Shown: piece by piece, positions 4,628-38,061 of the stretch
How the letters are laid out: each line of letters opens with the position of its first letter
Position numbering within the stretch: position 1 is the stretch's first letter
Assembly: GCA_027064125.1 (NCBI GenBank)
Contig: JAMOQF010000073.1
Span: 1-42,917 of the forward strand
DNA length: 42,917 nucleotides
Direction: 5' to 3'
From: Acidobacteriota bacterium
GTDB taxonomy: Bacteria > Acidobacteriota > JAAYUB01 > JAMOQF01
Program-made: the position numbers and the translations under genes
The notes under the pieces: generated by a model
Seen by the model: only the letters and a program-made list of their open reading frames with translations
The model's database searches: none
What the model was told of the DNA's origin: nothing

Positions 4628-5109
4628 TGAAGTGTCCTTTTTGTGGATTTAACGAAGATAAAGTTATAGATTCAAGAGAGGCAAAGGATGGGACTGTTGT
4701 CAGGAGAAGAAGAGAATGTCAGAAATGTGGTAGAAGGTTTACCACTTATGAAAAGGTGGAAAAGGTTCCTCTCATGGTTGTTAAAAAAGATGGTAGAAGG
4801 GAAATTTTTGATAGACAAAAACTTCTTTCGGGAATAATGAAGGCGTGTGAGAAAAGACCGATTTCCTATGGAAAAATTGAACAAATTGTGGATAGAATAG
4901 AATTCTTTTTAAATAATGAAGGGAAGACCGAATTTTCAAGTAAAAGAATTGGAGAAATGGTTATGGATGAATTAAAGAAATTGGATAAGGTTGCTTATAT
5001 CAGGTTTGCTTCTGTATATAGAGAATTTAAGGATGTGGGGGAATTTTTTAGTGAGTTAAAAAAAATAAGTGATGTGGATGAAGACAAAGATGGGAGAAAG
5101 AGGGAATAA
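4627..5109 (+). CDS. nrdR: Transcriptional repressor NrdR
   Basis: The protein has 160 residues, the usual NrdR length. An N-terminal zinc ribbon has Cys3, Cys6, Cys31 and Cys34 (MKCPFCG ... CQKCGRRF) with the arginine-rich VVRRRRE between them. An ATP-cone domain follows from about residue 48 ([19 protein letters not shown]). NrdR senses dATP/ATP through the cone and represses ribonucleotide reductase operons by binding NrdR boxes; no reductase gene is in this window. The ribosome site GAGGAATA lies in the end of hpt. Its 3' end overlaps the start of hsp20 by up to 41 bases. Confidence 0.96.
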
Positions 5110-5515
5110 ACCAGAATTTAAAAATTTTTTTACGTTTGATTTTTTGGGAAATATAAGTGGTGATGAGCAGGGATTGTGGAACCCAGTTTTTGATGTTGTT
5201 GAGAGTGATAAGGAAATTATTGTAATTCTGGAAATCCCCGGGGTGGACAGGGATAGTTTGAAGGTTACCTTTTTTAGAAATGTTCTTGAAGTTTCCGGTT
5301 TTAAGAAAGATTTGATGGTAAACATTGAGGAAGAAATAAAATATGTATGGTTTGAAAGGTTTTGGGGTGAATTTGAGGTAAAAATTAAGATAGAGGGTGT
5401 TATAGATGTTTCTGACTCAAAGGCTGAATATGAAAATGGAATTCTTAGAATATTTTTGCCGAAAATGATTGATAGACAAAAGAAAAAATTCAAGATTCCA
5501 GTTGAGTGGAAATAG
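5069..5515 (+). CDS. Small heat-shock protein, Hsp20/alpha-crystallin family
   Basis: The protein has up to 148 residues. The alpha-crystallin domain is recognisable from [21 protein letters not shown] (around residues 36-56), through the dimer-forming middle ([17 protein letters not shown]), to the C-terminal [14 protein letters not shown], a good match to the conserved 'a-x-x-x-n-GvL-x-I-x-lPK' motif. It acts as an ATP-independent holdase in the cytoplasm. The start is uncertain: GTG 5069, ATG 5072, ATG 5078 and ATG 5090 are in frame, none has a convincing ribosome site, and all lie inside nrdR, which suggests translational coupling. It directly precedes lon, pairing a holdase with a protease for damaged proteins. 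Confidence 0.88.
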
Positions 5516-29903: not shown

Positions 29904-31343
29904 ATGAAAAATAATATTTCATTAGAGCAACATAATGAATTACAGCAACGACTGGAACAGAAATTAATACTGAGCCAGGCTATTTTACAGAGACTTGAGC
30001 TATTAACATTACCATATCTTGATTTAACAAATAAGATAAATGAAGAACTCCTGAGCAATCCTTTCCTCGAGGAAACTTCCCTTAAAGAGGAAACTCGTGA
30101 AAGTGAAGATAGGGATGTGGGTTATGGAGAGAGTATAGAGACTTCCCATAAAAAGGATTCCTTTGAGAGTGTGGATCTTGGGGATTATTTTGAAAACTAT
30201 CTGGATCCTGGATATAAGACCAGAAAGGTTTCCACAGACGAAGATAAAAATGTATTTGAAAATATAGCTGTTAAGCCAATTTCTCTATATGAACATTTGA
30301 TGTGGCAGATTGATTTTCTGGATGCTCCGAAAAATATTTTGGAAATTGCTAAAGAGATTATTGGTAATCTCGATGATGATGGCTACTTAAATGTATCCCT
30401 GGAGGATATTGCCTCTTCACTGAAAGTGGATGTAGAAGAGGTGGAAAAGGCTCTTCAACTTGTTCAAAGTCTTGACCCACCTGGTGTGGGTGCAAGAAAT
30501 ATAAGGGAATCCTTTTTGATACAATTGAGACAAATGGGTAAGGAAAACACCATTACTTATGAAATAGTTGATAAGTACCACCATTTACTGGAAGAAGGTG
30601 ATCTGGAAGGAATAGCAGCTAAACTGGATGTGGATATAGACCTTGTTAAAGAAAGTATTGAGGAATTAAAGAAACTGAACCCAAGACCTGGACTTCAATA
30701 TTCTGACGATAAGAATATTTTTATTGTTCCCGATGTGTTTATTAAAAAGGTTGGAAATGACTATGTGGTTATTTTAAATGAGGAGGGCATTCCAAACATA
30801 AGATTAAATGAAAAGTATATGGAATTGCTGAAAAAAGGAGAATTTGAAAAAAAAGATGAACAAGTTTTAAGAAAAAAATTGAAAGATGCTGTGGAACTTA
30901 TAAAAGGTATTTACAAAAGAAATACTACTTTATATAGGGTTGCAACGGTTATTGTAAATAAGCAGAGAGATTTTTTGGATAAAGGGATTGAATATTTGAA
31001 GCCTCTTTCCCTTAAAGATGTTGCTGAAGAAGTTGGTGTCCACATTTCTACTGTAAGTAGAGTAGTTACAAATAAGTGGGTCCAATGTCCTCAGGGTGTC
31101 TTTGAAATGAGGAAATTTTTTTCCACAGGCTTTAAAAGTAGTTCAGGTGAGGATATATCTGTAAATGAGTTGAGAAGCAAAATTAAAGAGATAATTGAGA
31201 GAGAAGATAAGACAAAACCCTATTCTGACAGTAAAATAGCTAAAATTTTACAGGAAGAGGGAATAGATATTAAAAGAAGGACTGTTACCAAGTATAGGGA
31301 GTTATTGGGTATTCCCACTTCGAGGGATAGAAAATTAAAATAA
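29904..31343 (+). CDS. rpoN: RNA polymerase sigma-54 factor RpoN
   Basis: The 479-residue alternative sigma factor reads -24/-12 promoters and needs an AAA+ activator. Region I starts with the glutamine-rich activator-binding helix LEQKLILSQAILQRLELLTL, then LSNPFLEE. The core-binding region includes SLDPPGVGARNIRESFLIQL and LNPRPGLQY. The HTH is in SLKDVAEEVGVHISTVSRVV and CPQGVFEMRKFF. The C-terminal RpoN box KRRTVTKYRE (457-466) closely matches the consensus ARRTVAKYRE. Length is normal. The order lptB-rpoN-hpf is conserved with proteobacteria. A -24/-12 promoter in front of groES in this window is a likely target. Confidence 0.97.
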   Translation: MKNNISLEQHNELQQRLEQKLILSQAILQRLELLTLPYLDLTNKINEELLSNPFLEETSLKEETRESEDRDVGYGESIETSHKKDSFESVDLGDYFENYLDPGYKTRKVSTDEDKNVFENIAVKPISLYEHLMWQIDFLDAPKNILEIAKEIIGNLDDDGYLNVSLEDIASSLKVDVEEVEKALQLVQSLDPPGVGARNIRESFLIQLRQMGKENTITYEIVDKYHHLLEEGDLEGIAAKLDVDIDLVKESIEELKKLNPRPGLQYSDDKNIFIVPDVFIKKVGNDYVVILNEEGIPNIRLNEKYMELLKKGEFEKKDEQVLRKKLKDAVELIKGIYKRNTTLYRVATVIVNKQRDFLDKGIEYLKPLSLKDVAEEVGVHISTVSRVVTNKWVQCPQGVFEMRKFFSTGFKSSSGEDISVNELRSKIKEIIEREDKTKPYSDSKIAKILQEEGIDIKRRTVTKYRELLGIPTSRDRKLK

Positions 31344-34748: not shown

Positions 34749-35039
34749 TTATTCAATAACACAGAGAATTTCATCTTCTCTCATTATGAGATATTCTTCT
34801 CCATCAATTTTAATTTCATTTCCGGCATATTTTCCAAACAACACCTTGTCACCTTCTTTCACATCAAGAGGCACTCTCTCACCATTTTCCAATAGTTTCC
34901 CCTTTCCTACAGCAATTACTTTTCCTTTTTGGGGCTTTTCCTTTGCAGTATCTGGAATTATAATTCCACCTTTACTTTTTTGTTCCTCTTCTTCCATTCT
35001 CTTAATTAAAACTCTGTCATTTAAGGGTCTAATCTTCAT
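34749..35039 (-). CDS. groES: Co-chaperonin GroES (Hsp10)
   Basis: The 96-residue lid of the GroEL chamber has the usual opening [20 protein letters not shown] followed by the mobile loop [20 protein letters not shown]. The roof/beta segments [20 protein letters not shown] and [10 protein letters not shown] are also standard. A strong GGGAGGAG site precedes the ATG. A -24/-12 sigma-54 promoter lies about 40 bases upstream, and I see no CIRCE element (the HrcA operator usual for groESL). Confidence 0.97.
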
Positions 35040-35077
35040 CGTACTCCTCCCTGAAAAAATTTTTCAACTTAACAGAT

Positions 35078-35095
35078 AAGCAATTATTATGCCAA
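35078..35095 (-). promoter_or_regulatory. Sigma-54 (-24/-12) promoter of groES-groEL
   Basis: On the minus strand the sequence is TTGGCATAATAATTGCTT. The invariant GG and GC dinucleotides are separated by exactly ten bases, as in the sigma-54 consensus TTGGCACG-N4-TTGCT; only the -24 block's AC reads AT. Transcription would start about 12 bases past the GC (near 35068), leaving a leader of about 29 bases that contains the groES ribosome site. rpoN is encoded at 29904-31343. Confidence 0.85.
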
Positions 35096-35127
35096 AAAAA
35101 ATAAGGGTTTTTGAGTGAAGTGTGGAG

Positions 35128-35161
35128 AAAAATTACTCGCTTTACGAATTGGTATGAGTAA
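35128..35161 (-). repeat. Inverted repeat upstream of groES: weak terminator or activator site
   Basis: Arms TTACTC (35133-35138) and GAGTAA (35156-35161) flank 17 bases. Read on the minus strand it lies 11 bases after the peptidase stop and is followed by five T, so it may be a weak intrinsic terminator. It also lies about 38-66 bases upstream of the -24 element, where an enhancer-binding protein could bind. The sequence alone does not decide. Confidence 0.5.
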
Positions 35162-35172
35162 AAGTTCCCAGA

Positions 35173-38061
35173 TTAATAATAGGGTATTACTGCGGAGATA
35201 AAGTTAAGAGAATTATCTCCAAATATTTCATAAGCGGCTATGGGATAATCTGATTTTATATCGATATAACCTTTTCCCATGGTATTTGGATTGGGAAAGA
35301 GGAGTTCGCTACCAACGAGGGAAATAAATCTTGAGAATGGGGATATTTCTGTTTCGAGGTGATAGATTGGATCAATGTTTTCTCCATCGTAAATTGAGAT
35401 TTCAATTTTGTTGTTGTAGGGATAAGGATTTACAAGGGCAAGTCCAGTGAAATACGATATATTTCCAATATCACCTTTTGCAATATGATTGAAAAGTAAT
35501 CTTTTAGAGAGTTCTTTAAAGGCAGGTTGTATTGTAAGAAATGCTCCATTTAAGTCGCCAATTTCACTATAAGAAAGGATATTTCCATTACATGTTATTT
35601 TTATCCATCCATCAAAGAAATCTTTAGATTCACCAGAAGGCAGAATATCTTTTACATTTAATGAATAAGTTGAATAGGGAGATAATTGAGGAAGCAGAAA
35701 ACTGTCAAGAATGAGATTGCCATTAGAATCGAAAATGGAAATATAAATATTGGTTACTTGTGTGGATTCAAGAGAAATAAAATGAAGTTTGGTGTAATAT
35801 CCACCACCCATTGCCACATGAGGTATTATAAGAGAAGATGAAAAATTGGGATTCCGGGAATTCAATACTGCTAAGTTTGAACCATCAAAAATATATATTT
35901 CAGAAATGAGGGAATTTGAGGAATTGATTTTTATATAATCACCAGAGTTCATTTCTGGAAATATTTCATTTAAATTGAGGGTACGCTCATTCCTCCCATT
36001 TAAGGTGTTGGTGGGCGAAAATTGGAGAAGAGTGCCATCGGAATCAAAAAGAAAAATTGTAAATAGGACATCTTCACCATGTGGATTAAAAAGGGATAGA
36101 TAAGTAATATAATTTTCACTGAGAAGAAAGAGAGGTATTGTTATTTGATTCAGGTTTTCCTGGGGAGGGATTGTTCCGTCGAGATAACTTCCCTCATAAT
36201 CACCCTTCATGTAAAAAAGTTCCACAGGAAATGGGGATATAAAAAGAAGATAATTATCTTCACTCAGATTGATGGGGAATAGGTTACCCGCTATAAAAAT
36301 TTTTTCACCCTTTTCCGGAATTTCAAATACCTGGGGATTTGAAAAAGATGGATCGCGGTCTCGATCATCATCACACTCTGTAATTGTACCATCTTCGTTA
36401 TAGAGAAAAAGTTTTCCACTAATTGGAAAGTTATTTCTGTTCACAATGGTTATACCGGTAAATGAATTTTCAGTTAGTCTTTTTAGGGGAATTTGATAGA
36501 GGGAAACCCTTTTTATTAAAATCCTTGAAAAGGGATAAGGTATTGTCATGTTGATTTTGATTCCTTCAAATGCAAATTGCAAATTTTTAATCCCATACTC
36601 TGTTTTAAATGTTCCCCCACTTTCAAAAGAACTTATTATTTCACCCTTTTTTTCATCCTCCAATGTTGGTTTCTCACATAACAAATATTTATCCCTGTTT
36701 AGGAGAATTAACCCGACCCCATCCTCTATGTCTTTGATAAGTGTGGGAATGTTTTCTCCACTGTGGGAAACTAAGAAATTTACTTTTTTTGATAAAGATG
36801 TGCCATTTTCAAGCGTAATTTTACCAACGATGGTATATACACCATCTGAGAGGGTAGTGGTATCAAAAAACCAATCGTTGTTTATTTTCTCATAAAGGGT
36901 GTATTCTTTTTTAAAAACTCGGATACTTCCTCGGTATACTTCAATTGTTAAAGGATTTTCAGAGGATAAAAGTTCTTCCCTTTCAATTCCATTTTCATCT
37001 TTAGACCTTTTAAAGGCAAAATATGTTAAATTCATTGGGTTAACTGTCGAAAAGTACCAATTGTTGTTAAATTTAGTCCACTGTGGGATTAAAACAAGAG
37101 ATGTTTCCTCATCGTTCTTCCTATTGATTGAGAGACTTTTCATAAAGTGGGAAGGGTACTTGAATGAGTCTATTCCCTTTTCGCCCATTATGGTATCTAA
37201 AATGGGATAGAATTCTTCGCTGCTTAAGTTTGTACAGTCTATACATCTCAAATTTTCATTTATTTCCTTTAAAAGAGTATAGTCATATATGTCAGATGAA
37301 TCTGAATGTTTGCTTGAAAGGAGCATAAAAACCGCTGCGGAGTAGTTGTAGTAATATTCTGGAAAACTTGAGTTTGTGAAATTTATATTGGGGGAAAGAA
37401 ATCTATTTTCTTCTAAAATATCAAACAGGAAAATGTTTTTCTGGGGATCTCTTCCCCTCATATCCCTTATCTCTTTGTCAAATAGGTATTTACTTATGAG
37501 TTCAGTACAACATTCTGTCATTCCTTCTTCAATCCAGATGGTGGAAATGGGAGTATCTCTGTGGTAGGAGTGGATGAATTCATGTGTGAATAGTTGATCG
37601 TAGTATGGGTCATTGTTATAATCTTCATCTATTTTCCCATCATTGTCATCATCCACTCCGTTGTATGGATCTTCATCTATTTCTCCATCCCCATCGTTAT
37701 CCACTCTATAGTTTTCGATGGGATATTTTGAAATTATAATCACATTGTTTTCCCTATTGTAAAAAAACCAATCTGGGAGTGATGGGTCATATTTGATGGT
37801 TATGGGTGAAGTATCTGGATTTTCTCCATAAAAATGATCCACATATGGAGTTATCATGTTTAAAAGATTAATAAAGTAAGAGTAGTAATTTGGGTCCACG
37901 GAAGAATCAAAAATTACTTCTTTTTTATCGCTGAGTGTGAAATGGGAGACCCCATTTATCTCCATTTTTTTTTGAATGACACCACCGCATTTAAGGGCAT
38001 AGAGATAGGTACTTAAAAAGAAAAGCAAGATTATTGACGTAAGAAATATATTTTTTTTCAT
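35173..38061 (-). CDS. Secreted zinc metallopeptidase (gluzincin-type) with calcium-binding loops and repeated beta domains
   Basis: The protein has 962 residues. A signal peptide (NIFLTSIILLFFLSTYLYA) is followed by a propeptide-like region. Two acidic loops, DNDGDGEIDED (121-131) and DDDNDGKIDED (137-147), resemble EF-hand/dockerin/thrombospondin-type-3 calcium sites. The zinc site HEFIH (His160, Glu161, His164) follows, with the third ligand Glu179 in WIEEGMTE, the spacing of gluzincins such as M1/M61-like enzymes. From about residue 330 to the end come beta-sandwich units with a recurring pattern, e.g. NSFTGITIVNRNNFPISGKL, ENYITYLSLFNPHGEDVLFT and ISYFTGLALVNPYPYNNKIE, each followed by a 'xYDxxGxL' strand. 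It probably acts outside the inner membrane on proteins; the substrate is unknown. It has its own promoter candidate and ends just before groES. Confidence 0.82.
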   Translation of the reverse strand: MKKNIFLTSIILLFFLSTYLYALKCGGVIQKKMEINGVSHFTLSDKKEVIFDSSVDPNYYSYFINLLNMITPYVDHFYGENPDTSPITIKYDPSLPDWFFYNRENNVIIISKYPIENYRVDNDGDGEIDEDPYNGVDDDNDGKIDEDYNNDPYYDQLFTHEFIHSYHRDTPISTIWIEEGMTECCTELISKYLFDKEIRDMRGRDPQKNIFLFDILEENRFLSPNINFTNSSFPEYYYNYSAAVFMLLSSKHSDSSDIYDYTLLKEINENLRCIDCTNLSSEEFYPILDTIMGEKGIDSFKYPSHFMKSLSINRKNDEETSLVLIPQWTKFNNNWYFSTVNPMNLTYFAFKRSKDENGIEREELLSSENPLTIEVYRGSIRVFKKEYTLYEKINNDWFFDTTTLSDGVYTIVGKITLENGTSLSKKVNFLVSHSGENIPTLIKDIEDGVGLILLNRDKYLLCEKPTLEDEKKGEIISSFESGGTFKTEYGIKNLQFAFEGIKINMTIPYPFSRILIKRVSLYQIPLKRLTENSFTGITIVNRNNFPISGKLFLYNEDGTITECDDDRDRDPSFSNPQVFEIPEKGEKIFIAGNLFPINLSEDNYLLFISPFPVELFYMKGDYEGSYLDGTIPPQENLNQITIPLFLLSENYITYLSLFNPHGEDVLFTIFLFDSDGTLLQFSPTNTLNGRNERTLNLNEIFPEMNSGDYIKINSSNSLISEIYIFDGSNLAVLNSRNPNFSSSLIIPHVAMGGGYYTKLHFISLESTQVTNIYISIFDSNGNLILDSFLLPQLSPYSTYSLNVKDILPSGESKDFFDGWIKITCNGNILSYSEIGDLNGAFLTIQPAFKELSKRLLFNHIAKGDIGNISYFTGLALVNPYPYNNKIEISIYDGENIDPIYHLETEISPFSRFISLVGSELLFPNPNTMGKGYIDIKSDYPIAAYEIFGDNSLNFISAVIPYY

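Follow-up and report, generated by a model that had tools for sequence, protein, structure and literature searches.

Which form of RNA polymerase reads the groESL operon of this Acidobacteriota bacterium, and what would switch it on? Bacterial heat-shock control is usually described as the work of repressors (HrcA, HspR, CtsR) or of sigma-32. For the DNA analysed here (contig JAMOQF010000073.1, 42,917 nucleotides in full length, called the window below), a preliminary description had placed groESL under a sigma-54 promoter with exact GG-N10-GC spacing. We found the element as described. On the minus strand, read from 35094 to 35079, the GG (35093-35092) is followed by ten bases and the GC (35081-35080), and the sequence agrees with the TGGCAY...TTGCW consensus. 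The element is 55 nt upstream of the groES ATG at 35039, and downstream of it come a short leader, GGGAGGAGTACG and then the ATG (Table 1).

Table 1. Coordinates of the groESL operon, its putative control elements and rpoN in the window
Feature	Position	Strand	Remarks
sigma-54 -24/-12 element TGGCATAATAATTGCT of groESL	35079..35094	-	kept in L003, L004, L005
putative upstream activating sequence GCGAGTAATTTTTCTCCAC	35122..35140	-	weakest copy of GTGGRGAAAWWTTCYCCAC; matrix rank 6 in 1.03 Mb
groES (Cpn10), 96 aa, ribosome-binding site GGGAGGAG	34752..35039	-	PF00166, 7.6e-40
groEL (Cpn60), 540 aa	33099..34721	-	Pfam; sole Cpn60 match in genome
rpoN (sigma-54); activator-interacting, core-binding and DNA-binding domains	29904..31343	+	Pfam; TIGR02395 440 bits, cut-off 277

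The genome encodes what such a promoter needs, i.e. sigma-54 itself and enhancer-binding proteins (15 matches to PF00158, about 10-11 of them strong). The distance to rpoN given in the preliminary description is also right, as the gene ends 3.7 kb from groES. We dropped this proximity as a meaningful feature and regard it as incidental, because the remaining operons of the regulon described below sit on other contigs.

The search for further -24/-12 sites proposed at that stage gave 16 occurrences of the exact TGGCAY-N5-TTGCW pattern in the 2.58-Mb genome, and 7 when the spacer was one base longer; of this spacing control, the four sites examined in their correct orientation all fall within long ORFs. 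The majority of the 16 exact sites are intergenic, and ten sit 41-73 nt upstream of a start codon. Among their targets, besides groES, dnaK and hsp20-grpE-clpB, are an ECF sigma factor, a type IV pilin-like gene and a gene of the pilus type. At this density (16 per 2 x 2.58 Mb), the chance of a match in the 130 bp preceding a particular gene is p ~4e-4, and the chance that groES, dnaK and hsp20 all have the element is p ~1e-10, with the genes picked post hoc.

Several of the other exact sites are described here for their own sake. The pilin-like gene (L149, C218:14404, plus strand) has an adjoining NtrC-type regulator, and another site precedes pilus-type genes (L136, C3:12137, minus strand). 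At L137 (C7:12799, minus strand), the ECF sigma factor gene begins 56 nt downstream of the site, which may be a cascade from sigma-54 to an ECF sigma factor. L134 (C1:3609, minus strand) and L143 (C87:13911, minus strand) are near-identical intergenic stretches with TGGCATCAGACTTGCA in each, a repeated element for which an Rfam search gave no match.

It could be argued that the element before groES is a chance match and that an ordinary sigma-70 promoter is used, for example the overlapping TTGGCA-N17-TTAAGT, as the genome is AT-rich and the window sequence alone allows a weak sigma-70 reading. However, a sigma-70 scan of positions 34900-35400 gave no good site and none above the expectation from shuffled sequence. 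In relatives, TGGCA and TTGC are preserved upstream of groES with the correct spacing but a -10 is not, and the element is common to three unlinked chaperone promoters. We consider a chance match very improbable.

Conservation upstream of groES, which the preliminary description had named as a check, was followed in six genomes of the order, from two families and three genera, all of them draft assemblies. Three of the genomes (G003, G004 and G005) represent a single genus, so the independent lineages are the three genera. Where the gene was found, the -24/-12 element stands at the conserved position before groES in 4 of 4 genomes, dnaK in 5 of 5 and hsp20 in 6 of 6; no GroEL was found in G001 or G005. 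GroEL of the window itself is most similar to Acidobacteria records, and genomes of the same phylum match named Acidobacteria at up to 91-93%, which makes Acidobacteriota the probable phylum by sequence. Outside the order, an element of this form precedes none of 102 groES loci, and CIRCE is present at many of them. Since each of the three order relatives that have a groES locus keeps the element, which replaces CIRCE there, the proposal that groESL is read from a sigma-54 promoter is strongly supported by sequence comparison.

The same promoter type is found at two other chaperone operons of this genome. The dnaK gene (C80:23476) has TGGCATATTTTTTGCT 51 nt upstream of its ATG, and upstream of hsp20 (C83:21099) the element is TGGCATCTTATTTGCT, 55 nt from the ATG; grpE and clpB follow hsp20 on the same strand. 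GroES, GroEL, DnaK, Hsp20, GrpE and ClpB are thereby encoded behind one promoter type in three operons. A second grpE-dnaK-dnaJ operon (C152; L288:15095-18504) has no good sigma-54 site directly upstream of dnaK, indicating that some chaperones are outside the regulon. Two DnaK types are kept in the order. Another Hsp20-like protein, with 40% identity to the Hsp20 of the regulon, is encoded within an operon at 5069-5515 of the window (plus strand), with no sigma-54 site seen.

Reading the upstream regions of dnaK and hsp20 brought out a 19-bp palindrome, GTGGRGAAAWWTTCYCCAC, which is present at all 15 of the conserved sigma-54 promoters described above, 45-204 nt upstream of the -24. The best copies, at hsp20 of G003 and G005, are perfect palindromes, and a weaker second copy exists at some promoters. 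At groES of the window the palindrome is close to the promoter, with its centre ~63 bp upstream of the expected start. As the motif was drawn partly from the promoters under test, an out-of-sample test was run against a background of stretches of the window genome totalling 1.03 Mb, window included. A matrix from the sister family alone ranked the own-genome dnaK copy 1st, hsp20 2nd and groES 6th among all positions, and a matrix from the dnaK and hsp20 copies recovered the groES copies. Among 324 sigma-54-like sites in the 1.03 Mb, the three best upstream palindromes belong to dnaK, hsp20 and groES, using a matrix that included these three copies themselves. The genome's 13 remaining exact -24/-12 sites have no such palindrome.

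We also searched for the palindrome only, allowing up to two mismatches, in the six genomes. Most of the matches were intragenic or lacked a sigma-54 site, and their number was not much above that of a reversed-pattern control; the signal is the co-occurrence of the palindrome with -24/-12 elements, not the match count. Two further matches in G002 have a strong -24/-12 element ~60 nt downstream. Their targets are grpE, at a distance of 81 nt, and a dnaJ-like gene, at 254 nt; Pfam confirmed both. The targets found with both signals, namely groESL, dnaK, hsp20-grpE-clpB, grpE and the dnaJ-like gene, are all five core proteostasis genes or operons.

The usual regulators were then looked for. The earlier remark that no CIRCE operator is visible holds for the region upstream of groES in the window, and no CIRCE was found upstream of groES in L002-L005. 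HrcA (PF01628) is missing from all six genomes of the order, genome-wide in the window genome; of 54 other genomes in the phylum, 45 have it. With neither an hrcA gene nor the CIRCE inverted repeat, the operon does not belong to an HrcA/CIRCE regulon. HrcA-free relatives outside the order (L011, L015, L017, L031) have sigma-70-like sequences before groES by eye, indicating that loss of HrcA by itself does not bring sigma-54. Fifteen proteins of the genome contain sigma-70 region 2: RpoD, two short proteins that do not look like ECF factors, and others, of which those read (all but L177) are ECF-sized. The two short proteins (156 and 222 aa) are both under the RpoH cut-off, the first with 77.7 bits against 323. 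No dedicated sigma-32 (rpoH) was found among the sigma-70 family proteins tested, and assignment of groESL to a sigma-32 regulon is not supported.

The best candidate for the NtrC-type activator, which the preliminary description had suggested searching for, is encoded next to dnaK. Divergent from dnaK, on a contig other than the window, lies the gene of a 464-aa receiver-AAA+-HTH_8 protein with the features of the NtrC family, i.e. a receiver, a PF00158 AAA+ domain with GAFTGA and a Fis-type HTH. The activator gene is divergent from dnaK in 5 of 5 genomes, the copy in G005 being a contig-end fragment; the best match of the activator in G002, G003 and G004 is likewise in this position. In the four complete copies the receiver Asp and Lys, GAFTGA and the recognition helix DRKTLRLKLKQYG are invariant, and the helices of the paralogues that were read differ from DRKTLRLKLKQYG. 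Gene neighbourhood, motif conservation and the shared recognition helix suggest that this activator binds the palindrome, and it is likely to drive the core chaperone promoters.

A different arrangement can be drawn from the same promoters, in which the palindrome is a repressor operator that replaced HrcA and another enhancer-binding protein activates the sigma-54 polymerase. CIRCE is likewise a palindrome upstream of chaperone genes, and the genome encodes about ten enhancer-binding proteins. Yet the palindrome is 45 to 204 bp upstream of the -24 rather than over the promoter and at times has a weaker second copy, as is usual for activator sites, and the gene divergent from dnaK encodes a GAFTGA activator. 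A repressor operator is therefore improbable, and we keep the palindrome as a putative activator site.

As for the input to the activator, no kinase gene adjoins it in the window genome, where a search for a kinase homologue gave one weak match (L323, 24% identity). Between activator and dnaK, and on the same strand as the activator, G002 and G004 encode a protein of 248-254 aa whose match to HisKA is below threshold; by eye, the normal kinase ATPase domain is missing from it. HisKA-like proteins of ~250 aa flank the activator in the sister family (L248:6317-7081, minus strand; L250:4906-5652, plus strand; L250:8683-9435, minus strand) and are possibly phosphotransfer proteins. Near the activator, an ADP-ribosylglycohydrolase-like gene was seen in four genomes (G000, C80, L150:3483-4424, minus strand; L248:3890-4960; L249:3720-4679; L250:7012-7971), for which PF03747 was confirmed in L150; it lies on the activator's other side, away from dnaK, in the genomes read.

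Taken together, it is highly likely that groESL belongs to a chaperone (heat-shock) regulon that runs on sigma-54 throughout the order, under one NtrC-type activator, as judged by the promoters and the palindrome with their conservation and specificity, by the lack of HrcA, and by the location and motifs of the activator. Opening of DNA by sigma-54 polymerase requires an ATP-hydrolysing activator, so transcription of the core chaperones from these promoters would depend on the dnaK-linked activator or another one. In the proposed mechanism, sigma-54 RNA polymerase would wait at the -24/-12 element in a closed complex, and the response regulator encoded divergently from dnaK would bind the upstream palindrome and spend ATP to open the promoter upon protein misfolding or a temperature rise. 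One switch would then drive groESL, dnaK and hsp20-grpE-clpB and stand in for the HrcA/CIRCE repression that is missing in the order. The activator itself may be controlled through phosphorylation by a kinase or relay.

That the signal is heat or misfolded protein is rather likely. The promoters and the enhancer might be real and the regulon answer to something else (nutrient, redox, growth phase, envelope stress), with the chaperones serving a different purpose, because sigma-54 systems answer many signals and the ADP-ribosylglycohydrolase-like neighbour of the activator may hint at another one. But 5 of 5 found targets are core proteostasis genes and HrcA, the usual regulator of heat shock, has been lost, and we take a non-heat signal to be unlikely.

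The proposed regulon may also need a tentative refinement, which is not a full rival, namely that sigma-54 serves stress induction and a hidden sigma-70 promoter or read-through supplies basal groESL. Some basal expression is expected as groEL is normally essential, and the gene at 35173-38061, upstream of groES on the same strand, could read through; the sigma-70 scan described above argues against a hidden promoter. A model for this is Chlamydia trachomatis, in which hrcA-grpE-dnaK has tandem sigma-66/sigma-54 promoters (PMC8762339). There, as here, a chaperone operon has a sigma-54 promoter, whereas in Chlamydia HrcA/CIRCE still controls the heat-shock response and rpoN goes down with heat (PMC8762339). 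In the present order HrcA is absent.

Sigma-54 at single chaperone genes has precedent. In Bradyrhizobium, groESL3 is under NifA and sigma-54, which is similar in having a groESL operon with a -24/-12 promoter and an upstream activator site. However, that operon is one of several copies and tied to nitrogen fixation, and the comparison with a rhizobial accessory copy drawn in the preliminary description undersells the present case, in which the only Cpn60 gene found is concerned, dnaK and hsp20-grpE-clpB share its promoter type and enhancer, and both palindrome and activator are different. E. coli ibpB and pspA are also stress proteins with sigma-54 promoters, but they are side branches beside a sigma-32 response, while here no dedicated sigma-32 was found and sigma-54 would serve core chaperones.

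In Myxococcus xanthus, the NtrC-like HsfA acts on the heat-shock gene lonD (PMC9109919, citing Ueki and Inouye 2002), a similar case of an NtrC-like response regulator directly controlling a heat-shock gene. HsfBA differs in that, in the parts of that article consulted, it concerns one heat-shock gene (lonD) and secondary metabolism, has a hybrid kinase in its operon, and is not described as an order-wide control of groESL, dnaK and hsp20 (PMC9109919). Control by HrcA/CIRCE has the same target genes, and HrcA is present in most other relatives in the phylum; it is negative control by a repressor, in contrast to the present system, and both HrcA and CIRCE are missing here. In the open-access literature we found no report of a core chaperone regulon on sigma-54 only with HrcA lost.

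We lean towards the view that the order replaced HrcA and sigma-32 heat-shock control with sigma-54 and one dedicated enhancer-binding protein, and that the sister-family activator may be fed by the small HisKA-like protein encoded between activator and dnaK. The proposal offers a defined set of targets together with an activator and a 19-bp site that can both be tested, and it prompts one to ask how basal expression of an essential chaperonin is maintained. If true, placing the core chaperones under sigma-54, which does not act unless an ATP-driven activator is present, would add another design to those of heat-shock control, with a logic nearer to the activator-driven heat-shock factor of eukaryotes.
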